This document shows positions 20,441 to 48,797 of a stretch of 64,000 bases of DNA, piece by piece. Each line of letters begins with the position of its first letter. Within the stretch, counting starts at the first letter, position 1. The notes under the pieces were generated by a model that worked only from the letters and a program-made list of their open reading frames with translations, was not told where the DNA came from and did no database searches. Origin of the DNA: Roseateles oligotrophus (GTDB taxonomy: Bacteria; Pseudomonadota; Gammaproteobacteria; Burkholderiales; Burkholderiaceae_C); the NCBI RefSeq assembly GCF_014204525.1, contig NZ_JACHLP010000001.1, forward strand, positions 124,001 through 188,000. The letters are read 5' to 3'. The position numbers were made by a program, and so were the translations under genes.

Positions 20441-20478
20441 TGTCGCTCAAGTCCACGGGCTTGTGCGGCTGGCACCAT

Positions 20479-20712
20479 CCTAGATTCAGTAGTTGAGCGA
20501 GCCCGAGGGGCTGGCGAGGCGGGTCGCTGGCAAGGCGCGCCGACGAAGCGGGCTCCTGCCCACGAGGAGAAGCAACGCCGCCAGCGGCCCGAAGCGCCAG
20601 ACCAGCGAGTTCGCAGCGTTCATCATCGGAGTGGTGAACAAAAATTTGGCACTAAGGTGTTGAACCAACAGGACTATCAAGGAAGGGCAAGCGGTCAACT
20701 GCTGAATCTAGG
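20479..20712. repeat. 234-bp inverted-repeat element, copy 1
   Basis: The ends are inverted repeats: CCTAGATTCAGTAGTTGA on the left, and TCAACTGCTGAATCTAGG on the right (17 of 18 paired). A second copy at 48564-48797 is the same length. About the first 105 bases and the last 22 align without gaps; the middle is diverged. The conserved part holds a GGGC-TCCT-GCCC hairpin. The middle holds a further hairpin (GTTCATCA and TGGTGAAC). It fills the spacer between mnmH and the DUF2189 gene. Open frames on it lack normal starts. It is MITE-like or a structured intergenic repeat. Confidence 0.75.
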
Positions 20713-20729
20713 ATCGCCCCCACCACATC

Positions 20730-25663: not shown

Positions 25664-25806
25664 TCAGAGGCTGAGAACTTTTGTAGCGAGCGGTCGTCAG
25701 GCTAGGCGGACGGAGCACAGGAACCGGAACGTACTCCCTGTACGTGAGGATTCCGAGCACCGCCCAACGACGCTTGGCGGCCGCGCAGTAAAAAGTTCTC
25801 ATCCTC

Positions 25807-25809
<3 letters not shown>
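25664..25809 (-). mobile_element. 140-bp stop-codon-linked inverted-repeat element, copy 1 (after glpV)
   Basis: The core is 25667-25806 (140 bp), with ends GAGGATGAGAACTTTT and AAAAGTTCTCAGCCTC on the minus strand. TGA flanks both ends in the same direction; the first is the glpV stop codon. An inner hairpin (CGTAC-TCCCT-GTACG, within GGAA...TTCC) marks the centre. It is the same size as, and nearly identical to, copies at 27643-27788 and 37659-37804. It looks like a MITE with a 3-bp TGA target duplication. Confidence 0.85.
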
Positions 25810-27552
<1,743 letters not shown>

Positions 27553-27642
27553 GCTTGTCTCCATCTTGCGTGTTGTCAGCCCCCGGACCGGGATTCAATA
27601 GACACGGCCCCGGGGACGCGGGCCGAATCCTTGGCTACGGAA

Positions 27643-27788
27643 TCAGAGGGTGAGAACTTTTGTCGCGAGCGGTCGTCAGGCTAGGCGGACGGAGCGCAGG
27701 AACCGGAACGTACTCCCTGTACGTGAGGATTCCGAGCACCGCCCAACGACGCATGGCGACCGCGCAGTAAAAAGTTCTCACCCTCTCA
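27643..27788 (-). mobile_element. 140-bp stop-codon-linked inverted-repeat element, copy 2 (between glpU and glpV)
   Basis: The core is 27646-27785, 140 bp, with ends GAGGGTGAGAACTTTT and AAAAGTTCTCACCCTC. TGA flanks both sides on the minus strand; the first is the glpU stop codon. It has the same orientation as copy 1, so glpV sits between two direct copies about 1.98 kb apart. It differs from copy 3 at only a few positions. Confidence 0.9.
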
Positions 27789-28094
27789 GCCTTTTTTCAA
27801 GATCAGCCCCAGCACGGCCATGGACAGCACAAAGCTGATCCACACCGTGGGCTCGCTCTCCAGCGAAAACCATTCCATGGCCTTGGCCGACAGGCCCACA
27901 AAGGCCAGATTGATATAGGCCGCCGCCAGCAGGCCCACAAAGAGCCGGTCGCCGCGCGTGGTCTTCATCGGCAGCCAGCCTTTGCGCAGCAGCGTCGGTG
28001 ACTTGATCTCCCAGATCGTCATGCCTACCAGCATCAGCGCGATGCAGCAGAAAAACACGGCGACGGGGGTGGTCCAGACCATCCAGTCAAACAT
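27786..28094 (-). CDS. glpU: DUF2160 small membrane protein of the glycerol ABC importer
   Basis: 102 residues with three TM helices (VAVFFCCIALMLVGMTIW, DRLFVGLLAAAYINLAFVGL, PTVWISFVLSMAVLGLIL). DUF2160 proteins accompany GlpSTPQV-type glycerol ABC systems, where the gene is called glpU; its exact role is not settled. It is separated from glpQ by a 315-bp palindromic spacer and from glpV by an element copy, unlike the tight spacing upstream. The stop TGA doubles as the element flank. Confidence 0.85.
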   Translation of the reverse strand: MFDWMVWTTPVAVFFCCIALMLVGMTIWEIKSPTLLRKGWLPMKTTRGDRLFVGLLAAAYINLAFVGLSAKAMEWFSLESEPTVWISFVLSMAVLGLILKKG

Positions 28095-37260: not shown

Positions 37261-37430
37261 GAAAGGGTATTCCTACCCAAAGCCGGGTTTCCGGTCGAAA
37301 TCGCTCCACCTGCTTCGTCGTTCCTCATGAAGCGCGGGAGGATTGTTTGACTCACCCGCTTGCAGACCCTGCGGCCCAGCCGCAGCCTTGCTTCATTCCA
37401 CCGCAGCGCCTGTTCGGAGCCCTCATCACC

Positions 37431-37661
37431 ATGTCTTTCCAAGCCTATCTCGACACCATTCAAAGCAAGACCGGCAAAAGCCCGGCGGACTTCAAGGCCC
37501 TGGCCAAGGCCAAGGGCTGGATGACGGGGCCGACCCTCAGCGCCGAGATCAAAGCCACCCAGATCGTCGACTGGATCAAGCAGGACTTTGCCCTGGGCCA
37601 TGGTCACGCCATGGCGATTTACGCCCTGCTCAAGGGGCTCAAGAAGGAAGGTCAGGCCTGA
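37431..37661 (+). CDS. DUF4287-family protein
   Basis: 76 residues from the ATG at 37431: MSFQAYLDTIQSKTGKSPAD, KGWMTGPTLSAEIKATQIVDW, and GHGHAMAIYALLKGL. It matches the DUF4287 pattern of a small all-helical protein. An in-frame TTG at 37347 has a strong GGAGGA before it and would add 28 residues that are not family-like; either start is possible. The stop TGA is the first flank of element copy 3. Confidence 0.8.
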   Translation: MSFQAYLDTIQSKTGKSPADFKALAKAKGWMTGPTLSAEIKATQIVDWIKQDFALGHGHAMAIYALLKGLKKEGQA

Positions 37662-37804
37662 GAGGGTGAGAACTTTTTACTGCGCGGCCGCCATGCGTCG
37701 TTGGACGGTGCTCGGAATCCTCACGTACAGGGAGTACGTTCCGGTTCCTGCGCTCCGTCCGCCTAGCCTGACGACCGCTCGCTACAAAAGTTCTCACCCT
37801 CTGA
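37659..37804 (+). mobile_element. 140-bp stop-codon-linked inverted-repeat element, copy 3 (after DUF4287 gene)
   Basis: The core is 37662-37801, 140 bp, in the opposite chromosomal direction to copies 1 and 2 but in the same direction relative to its gene. It begins in the TGA stop of the DUF4287 gene and is followed by a second TGA. Ends are GAGGGTGAGAACTTTT and AAAAGTTCTCACCCTC. It lies between DUF4287 and the VOC-ECF pair. Confidence 0.9.
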
Positions 37805-39623: not shown

Positions 39624-39627
39624 GTTC

Positions 39628-39702
39628 TGGTGGGCGGTGCAGGGTTCGAACCTGCGACCCCTGCCGTGTGAAGGCAGTGCTCTACCGCTGAGCTAACCGC
39701 CC
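39628..39702 (-). tRNA. tRNA-Val (anticodon CAC), copy 3 of transcription order
   Basis: 75 nt with encoded CCA. Acceptor GGGCGGT pairs with ACCGCCC; anticodon stem CTGCC/GGCAG with loop TTCACAC gives anticodon CAC (codon GUG); T-arm GCAGGTTCGAACCTGC. It differs from the other two copies by one base in the D arm (GCGG instead of GTGG). Confidence 0.97.
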
Positions 39703-39782
39703 GGTATCGGGTACCGGGTTTGATAAAACCTCGTGATGCCTGGGCCCGATGCGATTGCCGGGCTCATCATCATCAAAACAAC

Positions 39783-39857
39783 TGGTGGGCGGTGCAGGGT
39801 TCGAACCTGCGACCCCTGCCGTGTGAAGGCAGTGCTCTACCACTGAGCTAACCGCCC
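39783..39857 (-). tRNA. tRNA-Val (anticodon CAC), middle copy
   Basis: 75 nt, CCA encoded, same cloverleaf as its neighbours: acceptor GGGCGGT, anticodon loop TTCACAC, T-loop TTCGAAC. Spacers of 80 and 91 bases on its two sides hold no other RNA gene. Confidence 0.97.
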
Positions 39858-39948
39858 GGTTGATCGTGCCGGGAATTTTCAAACTTCTGACCGCAGCCTG
39901 GCTGAAGATGGCGCTCGATACGATTGCCGAGTTCATCGTCAAAAAGAC

Positions 39949-40023
39949 TGGTGGGCGGTGCAGGGTTCGAACCTGCGACCCCTGCCGTGTGAAGGCAGTG
40001 CTCTACCACTGAGCTAACCGCCC
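39949..40023 (-). tRNA. tRNA-Val (anticodon CAC), first copy
   Basis: 75 nt, CCA encoded, identical to the middle copy. It is nearest the predicted promoter, so transcription runs from here through three tandem copies to the terminator at 39583. Confidence 0.97.
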
Positions 40024-40081
40024 GGTCTGGTCACATTTGCTCAATCTGCTTTCGCAAATCTCGCTAACCGGGAAGCCCACG

Positions 40082-48552: not shown

Positions 48553-48563
48553 GGCCGCTCTAA

Positions 48564-48797
48564 CCTAGATTCGGCAGTTGGACGCGCCCGAAGGGCTCGC
48601 CAGGCGGTGCGCGGGCAAGGCGCGCCGAAGAAGTGGGCTCCTGCCCACGAGGAGAAGCAACGCAGCCAGCGTGCCGTCTGGCGAGACAGGCGGGCGTGTA
48701 GCGCTGTCACCCAAATGGTGACGTCTGTTAACGAGCGGGATGATCGTAGGCATCGATGTTTCCAGGTCAGAGCGAGCGGTCAACTGCCGAATCTAGG
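48564..48797. repeat. 234-bp inverted-repeat element, copy 2
   Basis: CCTAGATTCGGCAGTTG on the left end pairs perfectly with CAACTGCCGAATCTAGG on the right. It is the same length as copy 1 at 20479-20712. It shares about 105 bases of the left part and the right 22 bases, with a diverged middle holding the hairpin GTCACC-CAAAT-GGTGAC where copy 1 has a different hairpin. The 41-residue gene's stop TAA is one base beyond its right end. Confidence 0.75.

Follow-up and report, generated by a model that had tools for sequence, protein, structure and literature searches.

The 64,000-nucleotide stretch of the genome of Roseateles oligotrophus that is analysed here (the window) contains three copies of a 140-bp palindrome, designated A, B and C. 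Each copy consists of two 16-bp arms on either side of a 108-nt core, with direct TGA triplets outside (Table 1). Copies A and B, both on the minus strand, follow two adjacent genes, one copy per gene. The three copies are 96–98% identical in pairwise comparisons. A sequence-only reading of the window had reported three 140-bp inverted repeats, and their limits are confirmed exactly; it is also true of all three that TGA is present on both sides, that the first TGA is the stop codon of a gene, and that the same end of the element, TTTTTACTGCGC, faces this gene. The element is predicted to fold into a long single hairpin (-78.9 kcal/mol, z -6.6, 0 of 200 shuffles), and its opposite strand is also able to fold. 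Other repeats are present in the window: a 147-nt repeat, whose two copies at 20472–20618 and 48557–48703 share 79% identity, has an inverted-repeat partner near 20692–20727, and a 106-nt repeat is present three times in direct orientation at 39627–40053 (81–88% identity to the first copy).

Table 1. Features of the three palindromic elements and of the genes they follow (window positions).
Feature	Position	Strand	Remark
Copy A, element	25667–25806	minus (sense)	between direct TGA 25664–25666 and 25807–25809
Copy A, far duplicated TGA	25664–25666	minus	direct repeat of 25807–25809
Copy A, far arm	25667–25682	none	GAGGCTGAGAACTTTT
Copy A, 108-nt core	25683–25790	minus (sense)	TACTGCGC..GCTCGCTAC; homologues with other arms exist
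Copy A, gene-side arm	25791–25806	none	
Copy A, gene-side TGA	25807–25809	minus	stop codon of the SBP_bac_1 gene
Solute-binding protein gene	25807–27564	minus	Pfam SBP_bac_1; called glpV in the sequence-only reading
Copy B, element	27646–27785	minus (sense)	between direct TGA 27643–27645 and 27786–27788
Copy B, far duplicated TGA	27643–27645	minus	
Copy B, far arm	27646–27661	none	GAGGGTGAGAACTTTT
Copy B, 108-nt core	27662–27769	minus (sense)	
Copy B, gene-side arm	27770–27785	none	
Copy B, gene-side TGA	27786–27788	minus	stop codon of the DUF2160 gene
DUF2160 membrane protein gene	27786–28094	minus	Pfam match; called glpU in the sequence-only reading
DUF4287 gene	37347–37661	plus	Pfam match; stop TGA 37659–37661 is the gene-side duplicated triplet of copy C
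Copy C, element	37662–37801	plus (sense)	between direct TGA 37659–37661 and 37802–37804
Copy C, gene-side arm	37662–37677	none	
Copy C, 108-nt core	37678–37785	plus (sense)	locus L004; 3' half and tail match Rfam RF02228 (sX9)
Copy C, far arm	37786–37801	none	
Copy C, far duplicated TGA	37802–37804	plus	

The genome that contains the window (5.34 Mb in 30 contigs) has 23 copies, 21 of which are full length; the 33 BLAST matches correspond to these 21, to one copy that is split by an insertion (two matches), to one that is cut by a contig end, and to nine reverse-strand self matches of the palindrome. The 16-bp arms are complementary or nearly so in all 21 full copies. When the copies are oriented so that their TTTTTACTGCGC end lies at the left, the flanks are TGA/TGA in 15 of the 21, the other six being TAA/TGA, TGA/AGG, TGA/AGA, TGA/TGC, ACT/TGG and CGT/TGA. 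The stop codon of the sense frame abuts the arm directly in 16 of the 21 (one of these stops is TAA, and another, at locus L012, ends a frame with a weak coding score of 6.4); in the remaining five it overlaps the arm by 2 nt (two copies), lies within the arm (one copy), or is located 6 and 17 nt further upstream (two copies). In the copies flanked by ACT and CGT the stop is made of a T and the first GA of the arm, and these flanks look like the result of the loss of a GA pair.

Of the 21 full copies, 20 have a coding stop in the sense orientation at most 30 nt from the core, the exception being L005 (36 nt). The stops were called with a codon-usage score trained on 30 long open reading frames of the window, not from annotation, and this scoring labels L005 as antisense on the basis of a weak frame. 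The genome-wide count and the table of flanks extend what had been read from three copies: the copies are not mostly away from stops, and most have TGA on both sides. Ten of the 20 sense copies lie between convergent genes. At C1:964228–964444 of the same genome (L022/L024), and at L117, L145 and L146, the core is broken by a short palindrome with GTCCTCAGGACT or a close variant, which is a second repeat landing in the core. The sequence at C1:575046–575156 (L351) is diverged but still matches the core weakly (41 bits), and the end of the stretch before it resembles that of a tRNA gene.

The places where relatives lack the element inform on how it inserts. Seventeen of the loci could be traced to 40 orthologous places in five relatives, and 39 of these have no core within the stretch. 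The closest relative, genome G006, contributes 18 of the 40 places; a single stop closes the gene at the same position in 14 of the 17 loci, and this stop is TGA at eight loci (L002, L004, L007, L008, L009, L010 in two places, L017 and L018) and TAA (L003, L013, L016, L021) or TAG (L001, L014) at six, while it could not be read clearly at L006, L015 and L020. The far flank is in exact register, and one triplet shorter than in the element-bearing genome, at L001, L003, L009, L010 (one place) and L017; at the other loci the spacer has insertions and deletions or cannot be aligned.

The sequence-only reading had proposed a 3-bp duplication of TGA. The duplication and the empty sites with a single stop are indeed observed; the restriction to TGA is not, since the duplicated triplet is of the type TNA. 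Among the genus copies whose left flank is T-N-A, the same triplet is found on the right in 31 of 56, as TGA in 29 cases, TAA in one (L096) and TCA in one (L032). In Xanthomonas, where the same core lies between the arms GAGCAGCTAACAAAAC and GTTTTGTTAGCCGCTC, TNA is present on both sides in 40 of 50 copies, and the two triplets are equal in 35 of these 40 (24 TAA, 11 TTA), against 20.8 expected if they were independent; this set consists of the 50 distinct copies kept from 75 loci after edges, poor core starts and other arms were dropped. These matched TAA/TAA and TTA/TTA pairs are the clearest evidence that the triplet is a true target duplication and not a TGA that belongs to the element, and we consider that the data give good support to a target duplication of 3 bp, of the type TNA.

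The sense orientation behind stop codons is also seen outside this genome. A sense stop lies at most 30 nt from the core in 74 of 82 other copies of the genus and in 29 of 36 copies of genome G016, in both cases among the matches listed, and in 35 of 40 copies from other genera of the family (best-scoring matches). The sampled total amounts to 158 sense copies at stops out of 179, with three antisense copies (L055, L139 and L347) and one ambiguous one (L210), the rest being L005 and 16 copies at no stop; these orientation counts are samples from which repeated sequences and rows with more than two mismatches at either end of the core were dropped. The modal distance from stop to core is 19 nt. 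Genome G016 gives 46 BLAST matches; two of its loci, L343 and L345, contain two cores in one stretch, the second of which is broken, and the cores of L345 are about 160 nt apart, which recalls the tandem arrays of the BRE repeats discussed below.

Among 11 loci from other families, four (L364, L366, L368, L371) have a sense stop at most 21 nt from the core as printed, three (L363, L365, L367) have one within 30 nt once the minus-strand matches are turned, L372 has an antisense stop, and L369, L370 and L373 have none that near. Since only 13 of the 50 Xanthomonas copies are at stops (nine sense, four antisense), the strong stop rule belongs to the copies of Burkholderiales, and is not a family-wide property of the insertion chemistry.

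Many copies of the genus match in the core alone; their arms vary from locus to locus and yet remain largely complementary within a copy. At 37 loci of the family, 9.3 of 14 positions of the cognate arms pair, compared to 5.5 in shuffled combinations (best of 1000: 6.3), and the values for 81 loci of the genus are 11.0 and 7.7 (best 8.6). Behind groES, fadB and the binding-protein gene, the stop and the last codons of the gene form part of the left arm, and the right arm tracks this coding end, as judged from the comparison of cognate and non-cognate pairs (10.4 versus 8.6 for groES, 9.8 versus 7.4 for fadB, 9.2 versus 6.6 for the binding protein); the tracking is marginal at ybaB (5.5 versus 4.9) and fails at mreB (5.5 versus 6.25). 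The template-switch correction of quasi-palindromes could yield the same covariation of the arms without selection. In the core, double compensatory changes are found in 17 of the 38 consensus pairs (24 sequences), for example in the apical stem, where GTAC/GTAC becomes GACC/GGTC. The variable pairs, when read on the sense strand, include 35 G-U and 79 A-C, one almost invariant T-G pair aside; as a strand test for a sense RNA, this result is ambiguous to unfavourable.

The core is found behind the same genes in different organisms: behind groES in seven genomes, one of which is within the genus, behind ybaB in four, behind a periplasmic binding protein gene in five, behind fadB in three genomes outside the genus and in copies within it, and behind mreB in one genome outside the genus and three inside. 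In forming these groups the protein ends were aligned by eye, and one member per group was checked by Pfam. On an annotated Comamonas plasmid, the core begins 6 nt after a fadB-type stop, with a thiolase gene beyond. In six genomes that share the gene downstream of fadB, the mean identity is 0.88 for the coding end, 0.89 for the core, 0.93 for the far arm, 0.72 for the spacer and 0.92 for the next gene. When near-identical genomes are left out, the four less similar ones give 0.89 for the core versus 0.80 for the spacer; over eight genomes the spacer is at 0.55–0.59, two of these genomes carrying another downstream gene, which inflates the contrast. Taken alone, the conservation of the core would be moderate evidence for function. 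It is the covariation of arms and core, the conservation at fadB and the recurrence of the same genes in several genera which, together, argue for a function at the shared-gene sites.

Regarding its distribution, a covariance model detects the core in 38 of 100 genomes of the family (two of them from the genus of R. oligotrophus) and in 30 of 185 genomes of the class, that of R. oligotrophus included; it occurs in Polaromonas and Rhodoferax. The central 60 nt are found in Enterobacterales between xylA and xylB and in a P2-like Yersinia phage, in both cases antisense to the surrounding genes, and in 35 of 5426 E. coli genomes. The sites of this central hairpin include gpM/gpL of the Yersinia phage (L357), xylA/xylB on a Yersinia plasmid (L358) and, in two E. 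coli, qseE/qseG (L360) and ucpA/cysP (L361). A second set of arms, CAGGCTGTTGAAAAAC or close variants, surrounds the same core at five loci of other genera of the family (L210–L213 and L220); four of these have CTAG on one side or both, and L211 and L212 are away from stops.

The element has several traits of a MITE: it is short and non-coding, has 23 copies in one genome and terminal inverted repeats, and its target duplication is accompanied by clean empty sites. The IS1031/ISL2 type of the IS5 family (ISfinder/TnPedia) has GAG ends and duplicates TNA. The element resembles the MITEs of this family in being a short, non-coding, multicopy sequence with inverted repeats that start with GAG and a 3-bp TNA duplication; it differs from them in that we found here no IS5-type parent with these ends. 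To our knowledge, neither a conserved core nor placement at stop codons is a general trait of MITEs. A scan of the R. oligotrophus genome for GAGNNTGAGAACTTT (at most one mismatch) returned 46 places, three of which are outside known copies with one mismatch each, and no autonomous element with these ends. PF13340 matches in one of 18 genomes of the genus. The sequence-only reading had suggested looking for a transposase with matching ends: none was found to act on them in the R. oligotrophus genome, at 30 Y1-transposase loci of the genus or in X. hortorum.

In X. hortorum (G117), L302 and L303 are pairs of ends with related arms, 1.6–1.7 kb apart, with a DDE_Tnp_1 gene between the ends of L302 and an IS110-type gene between those of L303; neither establishes a transposase with matching ends. 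Judged by eye, these genes would be insertions into a MITE relative of about 450 bp, like L304; alternatively, L302 and L303 may be composite elements. Related terminal repeats, GAGCGGCTAACAAAAC, surround other interiors at L304, L306–L309, L311 and L313 of the same genome, in elements of about 52 to 528 bp.

Why the copies are located at stop codons can be explained in several ways. One is that the transposase prefers C-TGA-G, that insertions into genes are lost, and that stops are simply the commonest sites which remain, the element being useless to the host. The flanks of 56 genus copies do conform to this consensus (C in 45, TGA in 51, G in 41). Once the copies are removed from the window, the C-TGA-G sites are divided between stops (10), other non-coding DNA (6) and coding sequence (95), the corresponding numbers for plain TGA being 41, 153 and 1412, so that 10 of the 16 non-coding C-TGA-G sites, or 62%, are stop codons. 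A preference for C-TGA-G combined with the loss of coding copies thus already predicts about 62%, and most of the effect can be explained without deliberate targeting of stops. The target choice proposed in the sequence-only reading is only a part of the explanation. The observed 20 of 21 is above 62% (P about 7e-4; 5e-13 against the plain-TGA background), and the 123 of 139 copies of the R. oligotrophus genome, the rest of the genus and G016 are more clearly so (P 6e-12), for a background that consists of 16 sites and copies that are related and not independent. This explanation also leaves the excess of sense over antisense copies unaccounted for, unless the transposase is polar, as well as the fact that, in several genera, the core follows groES, fadB and other genes whose stop is TAA, TAG or TGA, and is bordered there by other arms; we find it rather unlikely. 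The sense orientation and the placement behind the same genes with non-TGA stops and other arms likewise point to retention for a function and not solely to a strategy of silent insertion, which had been suggested because duplicating TGA would leave the protein unchanged.

Another possibility is a strand-specific insertion into the single-stranded DNA behind terminating ribosomes (IS200/IS605-like or linked to R-loops), in which the left TGA would be the target and the right TGA would be encoded by the element, hence a fixed sense orientation at stops. The constant orientation and the modal spacing of 19 nt agree with this, and so does L003, which has TAA on the left and TGA on the right, while G006 has TAA at this place. 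On the contrary, the flanks TAA/TAA of L096, TCA/TCA of L032 and TAA/TAA and TTA/TTA in Xanthomonas are true duplications, the left flanks in Xanthomonas show no significant bias (25 TAA versus 13 TTA, P 0.07), and 30 Y1-transposase loci of the genus are without the element, so that we consider this route improbable. REPs depend on RAYT, and the element could likewise be a REP-type palindrome that owes its mobility to a RAYT/Y1 transposase; read on its minus strand, the core does start with GTAG. However, Y1 transposases are present in all 18 genomes of the genus and the element lies beside none of 30 loci taken from the 66 matches listed, where the best blastn matches are 13–23 nt long (E 0.4), and neither the length of 140 bp nor the target duplication fits. 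As no RAYT is flanked by the core at these 30 loci, we rejected this origin as highly improbable. Readings of the element as attC-like or as a bacterial SECIS were dropped on the basis of the motifs of such elements; TAA stops are also used, and the genes are unrelated.

The core overlaps with an annotated RNA family. Five loci score 54.2 (L004), 44.3 (L034), 43.7, 41.2 and 34.5 bits with the Rfam model of sX9 (RF02228), whose gathering threshold is 44. The central hairpin and the 3' half (GUAC-loop-GUAC to GCUCGCUAC) are the same, and at the loci inspected the match has the same orientation as the gene upstream. The difference is that Rfam describes a 76-nt sRNA, while here the sequence belongs to a 140-bp repeat that is located behind stops and has a target duplication. 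In the Xanthomonas loci too, the sX9-type core lies within a palindromic MITE, and the Rfam model covers about half of it. In the part of the source available, sX9 figures in a list of the 20 bacterial sRNAs annotated most often, and its entry for expression is blank (PMC9029176).

The element is probably also related to BRE, the Beta-proteobacterial repeat element of about 90 bp described in Bordetella and Comamonadaceae (Hot et al. 2011, PMC3110155), with which it was compared by description only. According to the accessible part of that description, there are 29 BRE in Polaromonas sp. JS666 and others in Rhodoferax, Acidovorax and Delftia, one locus is transcribed, the repeats have features of mobility and form tandem arrays, and some copies overlap the ends of open reading frames by a few bases; the same part mentions neither a stop-codon rule nor an orientation rule nor a target duplication (PMC3110155).

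REP/BIME of E. coli, ERIC and the NEMIS of Neisseria resemble the element as intergenic palindromic repeats, no sequence relation being shown. A REP near a stop codon can regulate translation. For the ERIC sequences of yersiniae, regulation of adjacent genes through RNA hairpins is reported (PMC2267715, seen in part), and ERIC-type repeats duplicate TA (PMC2759123, in part). RU-2 and RU-3, considered as relatives in Enterobacterales, were set aside since their sequences, as given in the accessible part of PMC2759123, are unlike the core by eye. We found no report of the stop-codon rule in the accessible literature on sX9, MITE, BRE, BoxC and YPAL, in which subscription journals are thinly covered, and no paper in the literature on REP with trans-translation.

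We lean towards the view that the element is a MITE whose core has been retained by Burkholderiales as a structured 3'-UTR element. It would be a non-autonomous, MITE-type palindrome in which 16-bp arms, variable between lineages and largely complementary within a copy, surround a conserved hairpin core of 108 nt. A transposase supplied in trans would cut at the GAG ends and duplicate TNA, with a preference for C-TGA-G in this organism, and the copies inserted into coding DNA would be lost. The sense copies that abut a stop would be kept because a long stem-loop close to the site of termination is useful to the mRNA, the likeliest use being to shield the upstream message from 3' exonucleases, or to set processing and termination; about half of the copies in the R. 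oligotrophus genome appear to lie between two genes of the same orientation. At groES, fadB and the binding-protein gene, some older copies have a basal stem that itself takes in the stop and the last codons.

A wider proposal, which we regard as possible rather than probable, is that a mobile element became a transferable mRNA tail. One core, with different sets of arms in the different lineages of Gammaproteobacteria (in the sense of GTDB), would have been added in sense behind stop codons; in the old copies, the basal stem that contains the stop and the last codons would be opened by the terminating ribosome, which would couple termination to the fate of the mRNA. In this proposal sX9, probably BRE, and the intergenic hairpins of Enterobacterales would form one family.

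As regards the biology of these bacteria, sX9, a frequently annotated and unexplained "sRNA", is now joined to a mobile palindrome, and a placement rule can be given for the sX9-type core: in sense, directly behind a stop codon. If the core acts on the mRNA, transposition would have repeatedly supplied housekeeping genes with a ready-made 3' regulatory module, and the genomes with many copies, such as those of R. oligotrophus and G016, would offer natural before-and-after pairs in which its effect may be measured.
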